From a virus: a stretch of 21,733 nt of DNA. The number at the start of each line of letters is the position of its first letter. Within the stretch, counting starts at the first letter, position 1. Below are positions 2,698 through 21,733 of this stretch, in pieces. A model generated the notes under the pieces. That model had not been told where the DNA came from. It did not search any database and saw only the letters and a program-made list of their open reading frames with translations. Where the stretch lies: positions 1-21,733 of IMG/VR virus record IMGVR_UViG_3300036715_001789; one strand, 5' to 3'. The position numbers were made by a program, and so were the translations under genes.

Positions 2698-3338
2698 TAC
2701 GTGTGTTCCTCAACTGCTTGTATGCGCCAGCCCAGATCCGTGAATTCCGCGGCCTGCACGACAAAGCGCCTAGCTTGATCATCGACAATCACATCAGATG
2801 CGACGATTTGCGTTGTGATAGATGGCGGCAATAATATTTTCCAGCCTGAATTCTTCCCTGCTGACGGTACACCGGTACCGGATGATTCGCCGCGACCACC
2901 AAGCAAAATTGACGCTGGCCAGCCTGAAATAACCGCGACTTGTGCTGCTGTGTTTTCTCCGCTGTAGGCGACAGCGCCAACGCCAGAAGGCGGCGTGGTG
3001 CGCATGATGCTGACAATTCGATTGCACTCAATGAGGATAATTGGCAGCAGGAATTGTTTGCCGGCGACGAAGTAAGTCCCTTCAGTACCGACGATGTAAT
3101 CACCCGTCTGCGTTGTTGCATCGTTGATGAGTGCGAACCAAGTCGGGTCGCCGTATTGATTTGGCTCTTTAAAGTTATATGACGATGTCGAATCAATCGC
3201 CACCTTAATGGTAGAAACCAGATTGGACAAAGGCGCGGTTTGTGATATTGGACGATAAAGCGAATGCAATAACCCAATGATGTTCGCAGCCTTCGCATAT
3301 CCAGCATAGACACGGGCTTGAATTGTTGCTCCGTCCAT
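2697..3338 (-). CDS. Head-tail joining region protein, 213 aa, function unassigned
   Basis: I place the start at the ATG at 3338 (product begins MDGATIQARVYAGYAKAAN). It lies directly after the stop of the upstream gene at 3341, and the longer frame upstream is Trp/Cys rich and reads like a shadow of that gene. The product has an early helix, then a beta-rich middle (TWFALINDATTQTGDYIVGTE, in part; TYFVAGKQFLLPI; RIVSIMR) and ends DDQARRFVVQAAEFTDLGWRI. This composition is common in small neck and tail-completion proteins. The gene lies between a 128-aa neck-like gene and a tail-terminator-like gene, so head-tail joining is the likely process. No family is firmly recognised. Confidence 0.6.
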   Translation of the reverse strand: MDGATIQARVYAGYAKAANIIGLLHSLYRPISQTAPLSNLVSTIKVAIDSTSSYNFKEPNQYGDPTWFALINDATTQTGDYIVGTEGTYFVAGKQFLLPIILIECNRIVSIMRTTPPSGVGAVAYSGENTAAQVAVISGWPASILLGGRGESSGTGVPSAGKNSGWKILLPPSITTQIVASDVIVDDQARRFVVQAAEFTDLGWRIQAVEEHT

Positions 3339-3340
3339 GA

Positions 3341-3727
3341 CTACACCACAAACGAAACGCCACCACCAGCCGATAAGCCCGGACCAGCAGTGATGCCAAG
3401 AAACGCGCAAAATTCATTGCGCCATTGATTGAACAAAGCCGTTCTGTCGCGCACTTCATTTTTGTTGTGCTTCCAAACCGCCGCCGCTTCAGTATCCAAA
3501 TTGACGCCAGATGCAACGATTGCCGCCTCAAGCAGATAAAGATTTGTCAGAAAGTTGGTGCGAACAACGGTCTCTTCTTCCGCGCCCAGGGTGTTCATTT
3601 TGTATTCAAGCACACCGTACTGCGTAGAAAACCGATAGCCGGATGCTGGCGTTGGCGTTCCCGTGCCATATAGTCCATAGCCACAGAAACGGCGTATGTC
3701 GACCTTTTCCGTAGTTGTGAATGACAT
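3341..3727 (-). CDS. Neck / head-completion-like protein, 128 aa
   Basis: The ATG at 3727 overlaps the stop of the upstream gene by one base (TAATG). The product begins MSFTTTEKVDIRRFCGYG, which resembles the N-termini of small phage head-tail connector proteins that start with a short strand followed by a helix and a YG motif. A helical middle (TNFLTNLYLLEAAIVASG) and a Gly-rich tail (GPGLSAGGGVSFVV) follow. It lies two genes after the major capsid gene, where head-completion proteins are normally encoded. Assignment is from position and general look, not from a catalytic or diagnostic motif. Confidence 0.55.
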   Translation of the reverse strand: MSFTTTEKVDIRRFCGYGLYGTGTPTPASGYRFSTQYGVLEYKMNTLGAEEETVVRTNFLTNLYLLEAAIVASGVNLDTEAAAVWKHNKNEVRDRTALFNQWRNEFCAFLGITAGPGLSAGGGVSFVV

Positions 3728-3957
3728 TAGCAGCTCTCCGGGAACTCGACCAACGGTGCCAGGCGAGTGATTAAATCGGTGATTTCAGCGGGATCATTAA
3801 CGACTGTTCCAACCTGCCAAAAATGCATCTGCTCGTCATCATCCAAATAACCGTATGGCGATGCAAGTGTGACTTGTGTTGGCTGATCAGCTGGATTAGC
3901 TTTTGCCGCAGCCTCTGTTTTTGCAGCTGCTTTTTCTGCTGGTGTTTCTCGTGCCAT
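3727..3957 (-). CDS. Small protein after the major capsid gene, 76 aa
   Basis: The start chosen is the ATG at 3957, preceded by AAAGGAATC, a clear ribosome site. The longer frame would start inside the terminator hairpin at 3973-4004. The N-terminal third is Ala/Lys/Glu-rich (AEKAAAKTEAAAKA), probably helical or flexible. The rest (SPYGYLDDDEQMHFWQVG, then VVNDPAEITDLITRLAPL) is a compact domain of a type seen in small unannotated proteins beside phage capsid genes. A head-associated role such as head decoration or head fibre is possible but unproven. Confidence 0.6.
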   Translation of the reverse strand: MARETPAEKAAAKTEAAAKANPADQPTQVTLASPYGYLDDDEQMHFWQVGTVVNDPAEITDLITRLAPLVEFPESC

Positions 3958-7684: not shown

Positions 7685-8965
7685 CTACCTATTCATGTGC
7701 GCCACATGTGCATCGTGGGCTTGTATCTTCTTGACCACTGGCCAGCGGAAGTTCAGGAAGTAGCCGCCAGCATCATTTGCATGGTCGTGGCCACTCTTCT
7801 TGTCCGGCTCGCCGTTGTCGTCGTAGGTCTGTTGCTCAAGGCAATCGGTGAATGTCGGGCATGCATCCGTATTGACGCGCAATCGCCTGACACCAGCGCC
7901 ATTCAGGATCAATGCATTCACTGAATTGACACGATCTTTGACACGAGGATTGACAGTGCCTGTTTTGATTGTCAATCCAGCGTTTTGCAAAATAGTTAAA
8001 TCTGAGACGCTGGCACCCTTGCTGCTAGTGTTCGCGCCGCTGGCATCTGGGTACACCGTAACGGCGTGGCCCTTTGATTTGTAGCGTTCAACAATCATTG
8101 CCGCCATCGTTGGCGTATCCCGAACCTTTACCAATTCATTGACAGCGTGCGGCGTATCCTCGCGGATCACAAAACCGATTGCCGCCATATTGTTGACGTT
8201 GAAATCTAGTCCAAAGTGCAAAGGCTCGTTCGGCAAAATGATTGTTGACGAATGATTTAATTCCCGAGAGAAATCAGGATAAACTGCCCCGCTCGTCAAG
8301 TTAACAAACTGCCCGTTCAGATACGCCTCGATCAACTGGGGCGGATAATCGTCGCGCAGTGAATCGATGTAATCGTCTGGCAGAAATGGATTTGACGCCG
8401 TTGCAGCCTGCACCATGCCATACGCTGGCTTTGGGTCCTTCTTCCACTTCTTGTACACAAAGCGGAAGCCTTCGGGCGTCGTATAGACAGACACCCGGTT
8501 AAACGGATTCTCTTGCCCCTTCGGGCGTTGCCGGTTACGCGCAATGATTTTGCGCCAGGCTAATTCGGCTTGTTTCTCGTTGAGCGTGTCTAGTTCATCG
8601 ACATGCGCTCTATACGATTCATAACCAACGATGCGCGCCGGATTGTCCAGCGTACGCATCACGAAGTCACCACAGCCGCCTGTTGACGTGTAGATGATGT
8701 TTTCGCTCTTGTTGTACCGATACCTGATGCCAAGCTCGATTAACTTTTCTTCCATCCTGGGCGCAAGAATCAAACGCACCAGATCATAGGTCGGCTCATA
8801 CATCGCGATCATGGCCGCTGAGCTGTCCAGCGCGTCACGAATGGCGCAATTGAGCATCGTCTCAGTCTTGCCAGTACCGAATCCGGCAACGAAGGCAGGG
8901 AACTTGTGCGGCATCTGGAAGAACTCAGCCTGCGGCTCAGTCATTACCATTTTAATTTCGCGCAT
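7685..8965 (-). CDS. terL: Terminase large subunit (packaging ATPase and nuclease), 426 aa
   Basis: The N-terminal ATPase has a Walker A motif AGFGTGKT at residues 27-34 and a Walker B VDEL with D123-E124. The C-terminal RNase H-like nuclease shows FGLDFN (D254), YPDASG (D307) and HDHANDAGGY (D394, D398), which supply the metal-binding acidic residues. The protein pumps DNA into the procapsid through the portal and cuts the concatemer. Its start overlaps the end of the small subunit gene by 14 bases, showing coupling. The 426-aa length is normal for the family. Both active sites look intact. Confidence 0.93.
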   Translation of the reverse strand: MREIKMVMTEPQAEFFQMPHKFPAFVAGFGTGKTETMLNCAIRDALDSSAAMIAMYEPTYDLVRLILAPRMEEKLIELGIRYRYNKSENIIYTSTGGCGDFVMRTLDNPARIVGYESYRAHVDELDTLNEKQAELAWRKIIARNRQRPKGQENPFNRVSVYTTPEGFRFVYKKWKKDPKPAYGMVQAATASNPFLPDDYIDSLRDDYPPQLIEAYLNGQFVNLTSGAVYPDFSRELNHSSTIILPNEPLHFGLDFNVNNMAAIGFVIREDTPHAVNELVKVRDTPTMAAMIVERYKSKGHAVTVYPDASGANTSSKGASVSDLTILQNAGLTIKTGTVNPRVKDRVNSVNALILNGAGVRRLRVNTDACPTFTDCLEQQTYDDNGEPDKKSGHDHANDAGGYFLNFRWPVVKKIQAHDAHVAHMNR

Positions 8966-9685: not shown

Positions 9686-10126
9686 CTAATCAACGAACCC
9701 AGCCCAAACTGGGTCTATTTTTGAACTTACGTTGTATGGTACATCTGCTGGCGGCAAGTCAACGCCTAGCTCTTTTGCAACTTTTTGCCCATCCAGGTAC
9801 TTGTCCCCAAACTGAAGCAAATTCATTGCTTTTAAAAATATCTCCTTTTGCTCCCGCGTTTGAAAGCAGAGGCAAGCAAAATATTCCGTGTCCGTTGCCA
9901 GTTCGAATCTTCGCCCTTCATCTTTTGCGCGCTTACGGAATCCCTCTTGCACGGCTGTTAAATCGGCGTGCGAATCTTTCTCCGGGTCCCCCGTCAGCTC
10001 CGGCAAATCAACATATTGAGGCGGTGGATTTTTTTTAAGCGCTCGCAAATCTGCGGTTTTTTGTTTAACAGCCAATGCCTTTGATTTGGCACTTTCTCGG
10101 ATTTTTTCGATATCAAGCTTTGCCAT
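9686..10126 (-). CDS. Phage protein of unknown function coupled to a PAPS-reductase-like gene, 146 aa
   Basis: The start overlaps the end of the upstream gene by 14 bases. The N-terminal 30 residues are Lys/Ala-rich and helical (AKSKALAVKQKTADLRALKK). The conserved-looking core is residues about 75-125: RRFELATDTEYFACLCFQTR, then EQKEIFLKAMNLLQFGDKYL, then DGQKVAKELGVDLP. I recall similar proteins near terminase genes in other proteobacterial phages but know of no proven function. The coupling suggests that it works with the PAPS-reductase-like protein or is at least made in equal amount. Confidence 0.65.
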   Translation of the reverse strand: MAKLDIEKIRESAKSKALAVKQKTADLRALKKNPPPQYVDLPELTGDPEKDSHADLTAVQEGFRKRAKDEGRRFELATDTEYFACLCFQTREQKEIFLKAMNLLQFGDKYLDGQKVAKELGVDLPPADVPYNVSSKIDPVWAGFVD

Positions 10127-10811
10127 TTGCGGCCTCCCAACGAAATACCTCCAACTCAGCCAAAGGGAACCACTCCAGAACTTTTTGATAGTCTGTCGGG
10201 CGATGCCTCTTCAGAGGCAGCAAAAAGCGTAAGTCAAGGCCGTCAAATGAGCGCCCAAACAATTTATAGTCTTGAGGCAGGCGGATGTTATGTTTTTTAA
10301 ACGCCTCAACCAGATCGGCTTTTTTCCAGTCCCATATAGGATGGTACTTCCCCTGGTTCTTTGAGATCGTGCCGTGCGTTTGTATTGCAATTCGGCGCAT
10401 CGGGCTGTCCGCAGCACGAACGCCATCGGCAGCCAGAATGCCAGGACTCAGCCCGGCCAATTGCGCTACGGCATTGCAACTGTCCTTGTAATTAAAATTT
10501 GGTAAATTTGCCTGTTCAATAACTAAGCACCGTTCTGGCGTCTGAAATACCAGATTATTCATCCACCGGTGCAGACTGGGATGCGGCAATCTGGTTATTT
10601 TTGCCTCGAATTTTCTCTCATAATAGTCAAGCGACTCCTCGACAAACTCAAGTCCTGGTATCAAGTAAAGGTAATACGGGACAACCCGATCAAAATGAGG
10701 GCGAATTGCGAGCCACGCCGCAATTGCGTCCTTCCCGGTTGAGAAAGCAAGCAGCGTTTCGCTTTGCATTTCCCTGACGGAATGTATTGTTTCCAACCCA
10801 CTCAGAGCCAT
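10113..10811 (-). CDS. PAPS-reductase-like ATP pyrophosphatase, phage type, 232 aa
   Basis: The motif FSTGKDAIAAW at residues 23-33 is the PP-loop (SxGKDS type) of the adenine nucleotide alpha-hydrolase superfamily that includes PAPS reductase. Further family-like stretches are DRVVPYYLYLIPGLEFVEES, GVRAADSPMRR (about 139-149), PIWDWKKADL and KLFGRSFDGLDLRFL. The last PP-loop Ser is Ala here. Phage members are common; IbrA, a prophage gene co-activator in enteric bacteria, is one relative, and the biochemical substrate is usually unknown. AGGAG precedes the ATG at 10811, and a promoter-like sequence lies at 10855-10883. It may adenylate or activate a substrate; sulfur chemistry is not assured. 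Confidence 0.75.
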   Translation of the reverse strand: MALSGLETIHSVREMQSETLLAFSTGKDAIAAWLAIRPHFDRVVPYYLYLIPGLEFVEESLDYYERKFEAKITRLPHPSLHRWMNNLVFQTPERCLVIEQANLPNFNYKDSCNAVAQLAGLSPGILAADGVRAADSPMRRIAIQTHGTISKNQGKYHPIWDWKKADLVEAFKKHNIRLPQDYKLFGRSFDGLDLRFLLPLKRHRPTDYQKVLEWFPLAELEVFRWEAANGKA

Positions 10812-17150: not shown

Positions 17151-17354
17151 TTACTCCTTAATGTTTACTTTTGGTGTGCAGCGCTTTTTGTGCAAATAAG
17201 TAAGCCGCTGGCCTACATGAAAAGAAAGCCTACTTCCGCGCTCGCCATTTTTTAATGCACTAATAAGCGACTGGCTGCATGGAACGAGCACAGCTAACTG
17301 CTTCTGAGTCAGGCCAGTTGACAGCAATTCTTGAACTGTTTTTTGAGTATCCAT
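17151..17354 (-). CDS. Cro-like repressor, 67 aa
   Basis: A compact helix-turn-helix protein (TVQELLSTGLTQKQLAVLVP, then CSQSLISALKNGERG, residues 6-40) of the size of Cro. It is divergent from the CI-like gene, across a 80-base region with three operators. A strong promoter sits so close that the transcript should start at or next to the ATG, so the message is probably leaderless. It is the first gene of the leftward early operon. By analogy it represses the CI-like promoter during lytic growth. Confidence 0.75.
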   Translation of the reverse strand: MDTQKTVQELLSTGLTQKQLAVLVPCSQSLISALKNGERGSRLSFHVGQRLTYLHKKRCTPKVNIKE

Positions 17355-17359
17355 GATTC

Positions 17360-17388
17360 ATTATCACGTTCGTGTTTAAGAAAGTCAA
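17360..17388 (-). promoter_or_regulatory. PR-like early promoter for the cro-like operon
   Basis: On the minus strand TTGACT (17383-17388) and GATAAT (17360-17365) are exactly 17 bases apart. Predicted transcription start is about 17353-17354, the A of the cro-like ATG. Operator O1 (17362-17377) covers the -10 and spacer. Confidence 0.75.
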
Positions 17389-17435
17389 GACTTTTAAACA
17401 CCTTTGTGTTTGTTTTTTATATTACATTTGTGTTA
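17362..17435. promoter_or_regulatory. Three repressor operators between cro-like and CI-like genes
   Basis: Three 16-base sites of the form WAWCAC-N4-GTGTTT: O1 TATCACGTTCGTGTTT (17362-17377), O2 AAACACCTTTGTGTTT (17396-17411, perfect arms) and O3 TATTACATTTGTGTTA (17420-17435). O1 overlaps the PR-like promoter; O2 and O3 cover the likely promoter of the CI-like gene, whose -10 (TATATT, 17418-17423) is seen but whose -35 is not clear. O3 reaches the A of the CI-like ATG. Confidence 0.75.
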
Positions 17436-17959
17436 TGAAGACACTAGCAAGCCGCCTCGCATGGGCAAGAACCAATAAAGGGCTATCACAACAAGAGTTA
17501 GCCCGTCGTTCAGGCGTATCCCAGTCCACAATTGGGAACCTTGAATCAGGGCTTCGTCTATCCTCAAGAAAGATCACTGTCATAGCATCCACACTGGATG
17601 TTGATGCGCTATGGTTGGCAGAGGGGAAAGGTTGCCCGACCACAGAGTCCATGCCGACGGCTTTCACTCAGGCCGTTGCAGCAGACGCGGAAAATACCGG
17701 CTTAGATACTCCATTACTGGCAATTACTCCAAGTAAGTCACCAAATGAACATATCCAAGCTGTCATCAAGCTGATGGAAAGCACGGATGACAAGGGCCGC
17801 AGAAAGATCAGAGACGCCGCCGAAGAGACGTTGGCGGAATACGATGCGCATTTGCGTCGAATCGGCGCAAAAAGTATCGCCAGCGATATCTTGAATATGT
17901 CAGGCCTGATGTCTTCTGATGACGTATTCTCAAAGAACAAAGAGAAAGAACAGAATTGA
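17435..17959 (+). CDS. CI-like phage repressor without a peptidase domain, 174 aa
   Basis: The start chosen is the ATG at 17435, the first with the standard XRE N-terminus (LASRLAWARTNKGLSQQELA, then RSGVSQSTIGNLESG, residues 4-39). The longer frame upstream reads through two operators. No ribosome site precedes it, and with the -10 at 17418-17423 the message would be almost leaderless, as for lambda cI from PRM. After the DNA-binding domain comes a helical stretch (ESTDDKGRRKIRDAAEETLA) and a charged tail. I see no LexA/S24-type Ser-Lys autocleavage domain. The stop overlaps the kinase start (TGATG). It should bind the five operators and hold lysogeny. Confidence 0.8.
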   Translation: MKTLASRLAWARTNKGLSQQELARRSGVSQSTIGNLESGLRLSSRKITVIASTLDVDALWLAEGKGCPTTESMPTAFTQAVAADAENTGLDTPLLAITPSKSPNEHIQAVIKLMESTDDKGRRKIRDAAEETLAEYDAHLRRIGAKSIASDILNMSGLMSSDDVFSKNKEKEQN

Positions 17960-18678
17960 TGATTGCCATCGCAACGCTGATTACCGGCACTGAGGTATCA
18001 ATTGGAGATGGTAGAAATAAACCGTTCAGGGCACCAGTCAGGATCGGCGAAGATCGCCCTATTTCAGCCATTTGTAAGCGGGTTTCGAAGGAACAGATCG
18101 CAGCAGAATGTTATGCTGCCACTCTATTAAAGGCATGGGGCTTGCCTGTGCCGACACCGCTGATTGTTGTCGATAAAGACGAATTGTTGTTTGGTAGTAC
18201 TGAAGAATATCCAAGCCTCAAGCAACGATTAAACATCAGGCTGGATTTACCAGAAGACCAGTTTAAAAAGCTGATACTCGTTGCCTGCGAAATCGTTGCT
18301 TCTTTTGAAGAAACGCCACTTGCTATCGTCGCCGATGAGGCCATCGATAATCGAGATAGAAACGTTGGTAATATCTTGTGGGATGGCAGTACGCCAAGTT
18401 TTATCGATCATGAGGCCGCATTTGGGCTATCAGAAGATAGTGATGCCAATAAATTAGTCAATATGGTCATCAATGCTGGAAAAACTGAGGCCGTTTCAAT
18501 AAAATCTGTCGCATCATCATTGACCTGGACTTTGCCAGAGATACGCGACCTATCGAGCCATGCAGACCTTGACGTAAGTGCGTTTTCGGCTTATGTTTCG
18601 GCGCGGATCGCCAACATTTCTGCACGCGTCCTGAAGAGGTTCCCTAAGCCTATCGATTTACTCTCTGAGATTACATAA
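17959..18678 (+). CDS. HipA-like protein kinase in the repressor operon, 239 aa
   Basis: The ATG at 17959 overlaps the repressor stop (TGATG). The fold has kinase landmarks: K40 in SAICKRV (ATP-binding Lys), E50 in the next helix, GLPVPTPLIVV (hinge-side strand), ADEAIDNRDRNVGNILW with D130, D133, N135, N138 (catalytic loop of HipA type), and SFIDHE with D150 (metal-binding, in the place of DFG). All key residues look intact. It is much shorter than HipA (about 440 aa) and resembles the short HipA_2-type group. XRE gene followed by an overlapping HipA-like gene copies the hipBA order. Expected to be made in the lysogen; substrate unknown. Confidence 0.7.
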   Translation: MIAIATLITGTEVSIGDGRNKPFRAPVRIGEDRPISAICKRVSKEQIAAECYAATLLKAWGLPVPTPLIVVDKDELLFGSTEEYPSLKQRLNIRLDLPEDQFKKLILVACEIVASFEETPLAIVADEAIDNRDRNVGNILWDGSTPSFIDHEAAFGLSEDSDANKLVNMVINAGKTEAVSIKSVASSLTWTLPEIRDLSSHADLDVSAFSAYVSARIANISARVLKRFPKPIDLLSEIT

Positions 18679-18679
18679 A

Positions 18680-19498
18680 ATGACAAATGCCACATGGATG
18701 CCTCTTTACTGGGAACCGGTTGCCGGAACAGATGAGCGCATCATGGCAGGCGTGATTGTTGATTATGAGAATAGTATGACTGCGCATAGGATATTGCGCG
18801 ATGATGTACTTGAAGCAATGTACGGAAAAGCATCGGGAAGCCCAAAAAACTTAATTGATACCGGGTTACGTTTTGCTTTGAAAATGGCAGAAATTTCAGG
18901 TCTGGACAGCGTAAAAGATGCTGTTCTCGGTCTGCACCCAGGCAATATCAGAACGACCGAAGCAAAAGATCGTAGCGAGGCAGTACGCATCGCTGCACTG
19001 ATGTTTTCAAGCTTATCCAATCTCGATTTGATCGATGATATTGATGCAGATGACGCTCCTACTCAGGAAGAGACAAATCGCCGACTCTCGACGGCCGTGC
19101 GCCAGATCGTAGTCGCCGAACGTCCGGATCTGGACAAGTACTTTAATCGCAATGCAAAATTGGTTGATCGCGGTGAAATAGTCAAGATTGGCTTTCTTTC
19201 CGAGCGATCAGCAATTCATTATGGCGTTTTGCACCCAATGCGGCAACCATCCAGCGTGAAAGATGCCCGTGCCAAAATCTTCGAACTGTTCAAAGTCCAC
19301 GAATACGTTGGGTTGCCTCAGTCCACCCTGATACTTGCAGTGCCACGACAAGATGAGCCGAGTTTAGGAAATAAGCAGCTCTTAAATATCATCAGGAATA
19401 CTGAAGAGTTAGTCAGGGAGGCGCAATCTGTTGGCGTTGACGTGAGGCAGGTGAATACTGCGGAAGAGGCAGCGCGTGAAACGATGGAAATAGCCTGA
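18680..19498 (+). CDS. DUF3037-like partner of the HipA-like kinase, 272 aa
   Basis: It starts one base after the kinase stop. The N-terminus (TWMPLYWEPVAGTDERIMAG, VIVDYENSMTAHRILRDDVL, EAMYGKASG) resembles the start of DUF3037-type proteins, which open with a strand, a conserved E and a 'GV' turn. The middle is helical (LRFALKMAEISGLDSVKDAV; EAVRIAALMFSSLSNLDLI). The C-terminal half (VKIGFLSERSAIHYGVLHPM, KIFELFKVHEYVG, STLILAVPRQDEPSLG) looks like a second alpha/beta domain. DUF3037 proteins are often next to short HipA-like kinases, which supports a two-gene unit. Function unknown; a substrate or regulator of the kinase is possible. Confidence 0.6.
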   Translation: MTNATWMPLYWEPVAGTDERIMAGVIVDYENSMTAHRILRDDVLEAMYGKASGSPKNLIDTGLRFALKMAEISGLDSVKDAVLGLHPGNIRTTEAKDRSEAVRIAALMFSSLSNLDLIDDIDADDAPTQEETNRRLSTAVRQIVVAERPDLDKYFNRNAKLVDRGEIVKIGFLSERSAIHYGVLHPMRQPSSVKDARAKIFELFKVHEYVGLPQSTLILAVPRQDEPSLGNKQLLNIIRNTEELVREAQSVGVDVRQVNTAEEAARETMEIA

Positions 19499-19577: not shown

Positions 19578-19736
19578 CTATGCGGTGCGTGTACTCAAAT
19601 CAGAGCCACAATGCTTGCACTTAATCGCCTCGATCCTGATTTCTTCCGCGGGCTTACTACCCGGATCAACAATTGATTCCTTTTTCCCGCAACCAACGAT
19701 AAGTAGCGCTGCCATCAAAGCTATGCCTATTTTCAT
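19578..19736 (-). CDS. Small lipoprotein with a CxxC pair, 52 aa
   Basis: AAGGAG lies four bases before the ATG at 19736. The product starts MKIGIALMAALLIVGCGKKE: a charged start, a hydrophobic core and a lipobox LIVGC with C16 as the lipid-carrying residue. The mature part is only 36 aa, with CKHC (C40, C43) near the end, a half zinc-ribbon-like motif. It points against the repressor operon, between that operon and the PL-like promoter. Membrane lipoproteins in this region of temperate phages often alter the host surface or block superinfection. That role here is inference. Confidence 0.7.
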   Translation of the reverse strand: MKIGIALMAALLIVGCGKKESIVDPGSKPAEEIRIEAIKCKHCGSDLSTRTA

Positions 19737-19900: not shown

Positions 19901-19941
19901 TATCACAAATGTGTTTGACTATTTTAAACACATACGTGATA
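19901..19941. promoter_or_regulatory. Two repressor operators at the PL-like promoter
   Basis: O4 TATCACAAATGTGTTT (19901-19916) and O5 AAACACATACGTGATA (19926-19941, opposite orientation) share the arms of the three operators at 17362-17435. O4 touches the -35 and O5 covers spacer and -10. Centres are 25 bases apart. Confidence 0.75.
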
Positions 19942-19943
19942 AT
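19915..19943 (+). promoter_or_regulatory. PL-like early promoter
   Basis: TTGACT (19915-19920) and GATAAT (19938-19943) are spaced by 17 bases. The 29-base promoter matches the PR-like promoter at 25 positions. Transcription should start near 19950 and run into the 125-aa gene. Confidence 0.8.
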
Positions 19944-19979: not shown

Positions 19980-20357
19980 ATGAACTTCACATTACCAGCT
20001 CACTTGCGCAAAAAAGACGAAGACACCGTTGCGCATTTGTTTGCGAAAGCAGTCGAGAGTGAAACGGCGTCATTGACGCAGCAACTCAAAACAGCGGCAG
20101 CGAACATGAATAAGCCGATGAGCGAAGTGGGCGTCAAGGTTTTCAACAGATCGTTAGATTGCCTGATCGATACGTTTGACGACGCTTATGGCTATGTCGA
20201 AGGCGACGATGCGGCGCGCAAGGTCGAAATCATGCAGGCGTATGTCGCCGGTGACAGAGAAAAATTCTTTGCGTTGCATGACTCGCTATTCAAGCAATCA
20301 ATTGCCCGTGAAGCGGAAAGAAACATCGAAGAAAACGAAGTAGATAACGGAGATTGA
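19980..20357 (+). CDS. First gene of the PL-like operon, 125 aa, unknown function
   Basis: The ATG at 19980 follows CCGGAGA. The longer frame starts inside the promoter and is excluded. The product (MNFTLPAHLRKKDEDTVAHL, AVESETASLTQQLKTAAANM, KVFNRSLDCLIDTFDDAYGY, MQAYVAGDREKFFALHDSLF) is helical and acidic at the end (NIEENEVDNGD). It lies in the place of lambda N but is acidic, not an Arg-rich RNA binder, so it is not an N homologue by look. It is directly under repressor control. No named family recognised. Confidence 0.75.
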   Translation: MNFTLPAHLRKKDEDTVAHLFAKAVESETASLTQQLKTAAANMNKPMSEVGVKVFNRSLDCLIDTFDDAYGYVEGDDAARKVEIMQAYVAGDREKFFALHDSLFKQSIAREAERNIEENEVDNGD

Positions 20358-20368
20358 TCTCGCCAAGA

Positions 20369-20677
20369 GCGGGGAGCCTCACAACTGCCCTGCCCCGCCT
20401 TCCGTGGCCGACAAATCGGATCGGTAACTCTCTGCCGGCGCAGTTTTAAGTGAGAGCCAAAAATTAACCAGTTTCAGCAGCGGCTTAGCCCCGTTGCAAA
20501 GCAATCAAACACTCTAGAGAAGACAGAAGGATAACCCTGCTTTATGGGAGTGAGACTGGTTAGTTTTTGGTTGATTAACAAGGCTGGCTCACTTACGAGC
20601 CACCAAACGCATGAGGACTGCCCTATGCAAGCTAAAGCCATTAGCCAGCATGGAATAGCCGTCTGAAACAGTCCTCA
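20369..20677 (+). ncRNA. Multi-hairpin structured RNA region in the PL-like transcript
   Basis: The gene-free stretch 20358-20828 is full of paired elements: GCGGGG/CCCCGC (20369-20398); CCGA/TCGG (20408-20419); CTGC/GCAG followed by TTTT (20432-20447); a long imperfect inverted repeat, 20457-20475 with 20552-20570 (17 of 19 pairs, extendable by two), enclosing GCAGCGG/CCGTTGC (20477-20497); TGGCTC/GAGCCA (20586-20603); TGAGGACTG/CAGTCCTCA (20613-20677). No convincing ORF lies here. It could be a leader with antitermination or attenuation function, or a free-standing RNA. Confidence 0.5.
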
Positions 20678-20681
20678 GTCG

Positions 20682-20753
20682 TGTGGTGAATGGCAGCGTT
20701 ATGAATCCTGATTATAGGCAGAAGCGCAAGAGGGTTCAAATCCTTCCACCACG
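20682..20753 (+). ncRNA. tRNA-like element (acceptor and T arm intact, D arm not seen)
   Basis: TGTGGTG (20682-20688) pairs with CACCACG (20747-20753) as a 7-bp acceptor stem (one G-U). GAGGG and CCTTC form a 5-bp T stem around the canonical loop TTCAAAT (20735-20741). The total is 72 bases, tRNA size. The 41 bases between do not fold into normal D and anticodon arms; instead GCGTT pairs with AGCGC and CCT with AGG to make one long stem, as in tmRNA-type tRNA-like domains. No CCA is encoded. Confidence 0.45.
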
Positions 20754-20828
20754 TAACTTAAACAGACGGAGAAACCGATGTGATCTGGCCTTTGAATTGA
20801 TTCTTGATTATCAAAACTGGAGATTGAA

Positions 20829-20920: not shown

Positions 20921-21046
20921 ATGAAGCCGTTTCGACCATCTTTTTTATGGGTGTGGCGGTCTTGGAATCACAGAAAAATGCCAACCAGAATATGCATCGC
21001 GATTTTTGATTGGCTTTATTGGAATTTTAAACGGAGTTGGAAATGA
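20921..21046 (+). CDS. Small Trp-rich basic protein, 41 aa, coupled to recT
   Basis: AAAGG lies seven bases before the ATG at 20921; the stop overlaps the recT-like start (ATGA). Six of 41 residues are Trp (for example FLWVWRSWNHRK and FDWLYWNFKRSW), and the protein is strongly basic. Such a make-up suggests membrane-surface or nucleic-acid contact, but I know no family. Coupling to recT supports real translation. Confidence 0.45.
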   Translation: MKPFRPSFLWVWRSWNHRKMPTRICIAIFDWLYWNFKRSWK

Positions 21047-21733
21047 GTGAAGTTACACAATCAGTAAAGTCTTTTAGCTTAGCGCCACAAGACCTTGCGC
21101 AAGCAATTCAGTTCGCAGAAATGATGGCTAAATCTAGCATTATTCCTAAAGATTTTGCAAACAATCCTGGAAACATTCTTGTTGCAGTTCAGTGGGGAAT
21201 GGAGCTTGGTTTGCAGCCAATGCAAGCAATGCAAAACATTGCAGTCATAAATGGCCGCCCTTCTCTCTGGGGTGATGCTGTGATTGGCCTAGTTCGATCT
21301 TCGCCTCTCTGTGAATACGTAACAGAAGAGAATCTGGAAGATAAATCAATCTGCCGCGTTAAACGTCGTGGTGAAGATGAGCAAGTGCGAATTTTCACTA
21401 TTGATGACGCAAAAAAAGCCGGATTACTTGGAAAGCAAGGTCCATGGACTCAGTACCCAAAACGCATGATGCAAATGCGTGCACGGTCATGGGCATTACG
21501 TGACGTATTTCCTGATGTGTTGCGCGGAATGCCAATTGCTGAAGAAATAATGGATATTGAGCCATCAAATACTTATCAAAAAAAGTCGGTCACCAATAAC
21601 ACGACGTCCAGTGATGCACCTCCAGCAAAACTAAAAATCCGTGAGAACGGACTAAAAGCCGCTATTGAGTCAATCAAAAAAGGGGACTTTACCCGCGAGC
21701 AATTGGTTTCTGAGTATGAGCTAACTCAAGACC
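21043..21733 (+). CDS. RecT-family single-strand annealing recombinase, 3' end cut by window edge
   Basis: The ATG at 21043 follows CGGAGTTGG, and the frame is open for 230 codons to the window edge. The stretch NPGNILVAVQWGMELGLQPM, then QAMQNIAVINGRPSLWGDAV, then IGLVRSSPLCEY is a hallmark of phage RecT-type proteins of Gram-negative bacteria. Also typical are KAGLLGKQGPWTQYPKRMMQ and MRARSWALRDVFPDVLRGM. RecT-like proteins anneal single strands exposed by an exonuclease, which is likely encoded to the right. With NinB, Ref-like and RusA it gives the phage a full recombination set. C-terminal part after about residue 190 is variable and linker-like. Confidence 0.85.
   Translation, partial: MSEVTQSVKSFSLAPQDLAQAIQFAEMMAKSSIIPKDFANNPGNILVAVQWGMELGLQPMQAMQNIAVINGRPSLWGDAVIGLVRSSPLCEYVTEENLEDKSICRVKRRGEDEQVRIFTIDDAKKAGLLGKQGPWTQYPKRMMQMRARSWALRDVFPDVLRGMPIAEEIMDIEPSNTYQKKSVTNNTTSSDAPPAKLKIRENGLKAAIESIKKGDFTREQLVSEYELTQD

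Follow-up and report, generated by a model that had tools for sequence, protein, structure and literature searches.

In phage lambda, the rexAB exclusion genes sit behind cI. The hipBA operon has a related order, with an XRE gene followed by a kinase gene. Phage 933W encodes a eukaryotic-like tyrosine kinase, Stk, that is co-transcribed with cI and aborts infection by HK97 (PMC3564112); the passage on Stk in that source does not mention a partner gene. Gut phages of the Gratiaviridae encode a kinase of the HipA superfamily that was proposed to exclude other phages, but the gene for this kinase is in a late-gene region, downstream of genes for an ATPase and a glycosyltransferase, and not behind a repressor (PMC8008677). 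In the Retron-Sda1 operon, deletion of the HipA kinase abolishes defence against Bas51, while deletion of the DUF3037 gene is toxic (PMC12548924). The system DS-6, renamed HipAD and modelled in PADLOC as PDC-M66, loses defence upon catalytic-residue mutation, and a complex of its kinase and partner was predicted (PMC13092281); the paper that named HipAD, cited therein, concerns E. coli prophage defence. Escherichia phage PhiR5_1 (PV340545.1) is annotated in the order cro / cI - HipA toxin - HipD antitoxin - kil - gam - bet, and Klebsiella phage Kp4864-1 carries a repressor-type gene, a kinase gene and HipD in the same order. A kinase pair in the slot behind cI is thus already known from PhiR5_1.

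We analyzed a stretch of viral DNA of 21,733 nucleotides, referred to in its entirety as the window, in which a repressor gene, a compact kinase gene and a partner gene follow one another on the same strand. With a probability of roughly 0.7, we read this locus as an immunity region of the lambda type whose rexAB slot is occupied by a HipAD-like toxin-antitoxin pair and in which exclusion would be carried out by the freed kinase. The features are as follows.

17151..17354, minus strand: Cro-like small helix-turn-helix protein, divergent from the repressor (phrog_6831 regulator, E = 5.5e-16)
17360..17388, minus strand (17388->17360): PR-like promoter TTGACT-17-GATAAT for the Cro-like/replication operon, consensus match only
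17363..17377, unstranded: predicted operator copy 1, ATCACGTTCGTGTTT, within the perfect 19-mer at 17361-17379
17395..17423, plus strand: candidate PRM-like promoter TAAACA-17-TATATT for the repressor-kinase-partner operon, consensus match only, 9/12
17397..17411, unstranded: predicted operator copy 2, AACACCTTTGTGTTT, sharing bases with the candidate promoter of the repressor
17435..17959, plus strand: XRE repressor gene, 174 aa
17959..18678, plus strand: compact HipA_2-like protein kinase gene, putative toxin, 239 aa
18680..19498, plus strand: partner gene, putative antitoxin, PHROG 21150, likely a remote HipD/DUF3037 relative, 272 aa
19902..19916, unstranded: predicted operator copy 3, ATCACAAATGTGTTT, palindrome match
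19915..19943, plus strand: PL-like promoter TTGACT-17-GATAAT, consensus match only
19926..19940, unstranded: predicted operator copy 4, within the perfect 19-mer at 19924-19942
19980..20357, plus strand: first gene of the PL-like operon, its ATG at 19980 preceded by GGAG
21037..21733, plus strand: RecT-family recombinase, continuing past the end of the window (Pfam RecT, E = 1.2e-5, above cut-off)

In the TGATG at 17957-17961, the last base of the repressor stop is also the first base of the kinase start, and the partner ATG at 18680 lies one base past the kinase stop (TAA, 18676-18678). The helix-turn-helix of the repressor spans residues 8-61 (Pfam HTH_3, E = 7e-13, with Phage_CI_repr above cut-off), and the protein falls in the PHROG 8/4 regulators; a Pfam search found no LexA/S24-type peptidase domain in it. 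The gene spacing and a weak consensus match suggest that a single autoregulated promoter probably drives all three genes in the lysogen.

The operon lies between the PR-like and PL-like sites, which have identical hexamers, are divergent and face outwards. Each of these promoters is overlapped by one of the two perfect copies of the 19-mer TTATCACGTnnGTGTTTAA in the window (17361-17379 and 19924-19942; 0.10 expected). The palindrome AWCACnnnnGTGTTT occurs at 17363, 17397, 19902 and 19926, two copies per end, and nowhere else in the window (0.77 expected). From the position of these predicted operators, we infer that they are bound by the repressor. Since the window shows the OR/PR and OL/PL layout of lambda, the operon occupies the cI-rexAB slot. 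An earlier sequence-only reading of this DNA had given the order of repressor, kinase and partner with both junctions and had placed the operon between two early promoters; the coordinates, the TGATG overlap, the one-base gap and the paired promoters, each with a perfect 19-mer operator, agree with it. As with rexAB, the genes behind the repressor thus lie between two operator-controlled early promoters, but the proteins differ, the kinase having only HipA_2 in Pfam and the partner having no match there. Rex-type families were absent from the Pfam, PHROG and PADLOC matches of the window, a comparison made at the level of family matches.

Past the Cro-like gene are genes for NinB, a RecA-dependent nuclease and RusA, and more early genes. 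In the PL-like operon, the ATG at 19980 suits the promoter better as the start of the first gene than does a GTG at 19911, and the product has no confident family in Pfam or PHROG. The RecT-family gene corresponds to bet of the lambda PL operon. The PL-like early region also contains a tRNA-Arg (CCT) gene at 20677-20754. In the interval that separates the PL-like promoter from the partner gene, a 52-aa open reading frame on the minus strand (19578-19736) begins like a lipoprotein (LLIVGC), ends like a zinc ribbon (CKHCGSDL; Pfam Zn_ribbon_3 at E = 0.0026, below cut-off) and has a promoter-like site upstream (19801->19773); a surface-exclusion lipoprotein is possible. Elsewhere in the window, a PAPS-reductase-like protein is encoded beside the terminase genes (10113-10811, minus strand; Pfam E = 0.0014, below cut-off). 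The terminase large subunit (7685-8965, minus strand) shares 66% identity with its counterpart in Xanthomonas phage Kintu, whereas the closest genome relatives of the kinase are mostly beta-proteobacterial.

The kinase retains K40, E50, D133, N138 and D150, the residues picked out in the sequence-only reading. All five are invariant across 52 aligned homologues, as are D126, E127, N131, R134 and H151. The AlphaFold2 model of the kinase has a protein-kinase fold (pLDDT 92.9, pTM 0.90) and matches protein and lipid kinases, the best solved structure being CtkA (3akk, E = 3.4e-7), so that the fold was found with confidence by the structure prediction proposed earlier as a check. When solved structures were searched by sequence, the kinase profile gave weak PI4K/CtkA matches only, and the kinase and the partner taken singly gave nothing meaningful. 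The sole Pfam match of the kinase is HipA_2 (E = 3.2e-5; 23.7 bits, below the 27-bit cut-off) and its sole PADLOC match is PDC-M66A (E = 1.2e-6), a model matched by 42 of the 52 homologues. The protein is thus, like the HipAD kinase, of the HipA_2 class with intact catalytic residues, at a Pfam score below cut-off. The earlier label 'HipA-like' is appropriate for this compact class but not for the HipA of HipBA, whose classical Pfam domains were not found in the 239-aa window kinase.

The partner belongs to PHROG 21150 (E = 2e-68). It had been labelled DUF3037-like, but Pfam DUF3037 matched neither the partner nor any of 55 homologues, and no PADLOC model, PDC-M66B included, matched the partner. 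In contrast, the HipD of PhiR5_1 matches both DUF3037 and PDC-M66B (3.8e-16 for PDC-M66B). Plain HMMER gave no match of the partner family to HipD. Using profile-profile alignment (hhalign), the partner family was colinear with 26 DUF3037 proteins over 234 columns with a score of 33.0, compared with a mean of 11.9 and a maximum of 22.1 for 100 column shuffles and 13.1 for the reversed profile; the probability given by hhalign itself was 25%. These profiles suggest that the partner is likely a remote homologue of HipD/DUF3037, and the label holds in that sense. Because the partner is not recognized as DUF3037 and its profile-profile homology is only remote, we call the window pair a variant of HipAD and not a member. 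The structure model of the partner (pLDDT 90.3, pTM 0.63) gave weak PD-(D/E)XK-type matches (XPF, Can2, DUF1828); no PDB fold matched at E ≤ 0.001, the best being an immunity protein (4zqu) over 109 columns. A different origin may be imagined from this model, although we regard it as unlikely: the PHROG 21150 partners would be a separate antitoxin/sensor family and not diverged HipD, and their C-terminal domain, for which the model shows a weak likeness to PD-(D/E)XK and DUF1828 folds, would free the kinase on binding the DNA of an invader. If this were true, the pair would represent an independently assembled kinase exclusion system specialized for phage lysogeny operons.

We also compared the window pair with HipAD at the level of the kinases. 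Both systems combine a compact kinase of the HipA_2 class with a partner of about 275 aa encoded directly after it, and in PhiR5_1 and Kp4864-1 the pair takes the same slot behind cI as in the window. The HipA of PhiR5_1 matches the kinase profile (E = 1.9e-14), and a profile-matching kinase was adjacent at 26 of 26 DUF3037 loci from the genome sampling. In a tree of 81 kinases, gathered as two sets by different queries, one branch (100/100) splits the kinases with PHROG 21150-type partners from those with DUF3037-type partners. On this tree, the clade of the window kinase stands apart, with full support, as the sister of the HipAD kinases; the depth and the root of the tree are unsure since long branches meet at the split. 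What is new here is this kinase branch and its unrecognized partner family. The HipAD kind is thereby extended to a branch that is common in phages of Gram-negative bacteria and whose pairs are missed by Pfam, NCBIfam and PADLOC models. The survey also shows that the rexAB slot is filled repeatedly by putative kinase toxin-antitoxin pairs, which pass from one repressor to another unrelated to it. The analysis offers a sequence-based route to further such exclusion genes, and it allows the role of rex-slot genes to be tested in a family for which a catalytic knock-out is at hand.

Searches with the kinase profile yielded 49 loci on viral contigs and ten genome loci. A search with the partner added thirteen further loci, and phage and plasmid records four more; single-protein scans of viral and genome contigs were unproductive, and some alignments were too diverse for patterns. 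At 74 of the 77 loci found with one protein or the other, the kinase gene is directly followed on its 3′ side by the partner gene, as in the window and in HipAD. Two of the exceptions end at contig edges (L011 and L040) and in the third the kinase is interrupted (L023). The kinase and the partner form an obligate pair. When the kinases were clustered at 70% identity (n = 42), 32 clusters had a helix-turn-helix repressor gene on the kinase strand, no more than 1.7 kb upstream, compared with 35 of 312 other genes at the same loci, a local and conservative control; a few of these repressor calls are weak (L050, L058, L066). In 26 of the 42 clusters the repressor gene is at most 250 bases upstream. 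The sequence-only reading had proposed to survey how often the kinase and DUF3037-like genes co-occur with phage repressors or in defence islands; pairing of the two genes proved near total, and their recurrence beside phage repressors was well above that of the control genes. No repressor was detected near the kinase in ten clusters; in one of these, L063, the start of the contig is too close to tell. Marine phage P24 and a Marinobacter M3C record have the same gene order as the window, while in Acinetobacter phage qsb1 the pair lies among tail genes, outside the lysogeny operon, and on a Rahnella plasmid it stands without a repressor. The partner family is rare in sampled genomes: leaving the source genome aside, 3 of 368 had it at class level and 2 of 397 at phylum level, while DUF3037 was found in 22 of 398.

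We propose that all three proteins are produced together in the lysogen and that the partner probably binds the kinase and holds it inactive. Infection by another phage would probably upset the balance between the two; the freed kinase would then phosphorylate a host target, growth would stop and the infection would abort, with the lysogens and the resident prophage protected. Toxicity, neutralization by the partner and defence are proposed by analogy with HipAD and Retron-Sda1, and the trigger and the abortive outcome by analogy with HipAD. Such a kinase would resemble Stk of 933W in being made with the repressor and in aborting the infection of another phage (PMC3564112). The toxin-antitoxin anatomy would also suit a pair that mainly keeps the prophage in place by addiction and does not exclude other phages, and the pair does occur on plasmid-like records, such as those of Marinobacter M3C and Rahnella. 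We find this improbable as the main role, since the position in the lysogeny operon matches those of rexAB and the 933W kinase. In addition, the HipAD-type pairs that have been studied protect against phage (PMC13092281, PMC12548924). Addiction and exclusion are compatible and could both apply.

The sequence-only reading had further suggested that the phage repressor may double as the HipB-like partner. On a model of this kind, parallel to HipBA, the repressor would be the antitoxin and the third gene an accessory. The XRE gene does stand immediately before the kinase gene and overlaps it, and the repressor has a weak couple_hipB (TIGR03070) match, at 31 bits against a cut-off of 71.65. However, kinase identity follows that of the partner (r = 0.94 over 49 loci; 0.82 for pairs under 60% identity) and not that of the repressor (in the pairs under 60%, r = 0.10 with its 75 N-terminal residues and 0.21 with its 60 C-terminal ones). 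Loci L030 and L031 have identical kinases (1.00) and partners while their repressor ends are unrelated (0.17/0.08), and L016 and L017, whose kinases (0.98) and partners are almost identical, have repressor ends at 0.21/0.07. Because kinase and partner diverge together and the same pairs stand behind unrelated repressors, the repressor is not the antitoxin. By these identities the kinase-partner pair is the unit and the repressor in front of it is swapped, which leaves the third gene as the candidate antitoxin. The HipB-like role is also contradicted by the ten clusters without a detected repressor, by relatives of the window repressor that head kinase-free operons (phiEt88, PseuP_222) and by Retron-Sda1, in which the DUF3037 gene is the neutralizer (PMC12548924); we therefore give it very little credence. 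The other part of the suggestion, namely that the cI-rexAB slot holds an exclusion or toxin-antitoxin unit built on a kinase, is favoured by the kinase fold, the pairing, the recurrent position behind repressors and the precedent of PhiR5_1. Although kinase and repressor share an operon and are tightly coupled, it is most improbable that the kinase controls the choice between lysis and lysogeny in its own phage, for example by phosphorylating the repressor, since the pairs move between unrelated repressors and are also seen in tail-gene regions or on chromosomes that lack a repressor.

A kinase-specific tail of the repressor was considered and rejected: such tails are common to some close relatives (0.80 in L041/L046) and wholly different in others, and similar repressors lead kinase-free operons. 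In L041 and L046 the DNA-binding ends of the repressors are unrelated (0.27) while the last 60 residues are 80% identical and the kinases 93% identical, a pattern that reads as immunity swapping with a breakpoint within the repressor gene. Other small genes accompany the pair at some loci. A carbon storage regulator is annotated downstream of it in the Marinobacter M3C record (L006, 9685-9870), and a CsrA-like gene, recognized by eye, lies between repressor and kinase in L010 (3680-3919). In L008, the repressor and the kinase are separated by two small genes (3161-3870) whose products resemble lipoproteins or secreted proteins.
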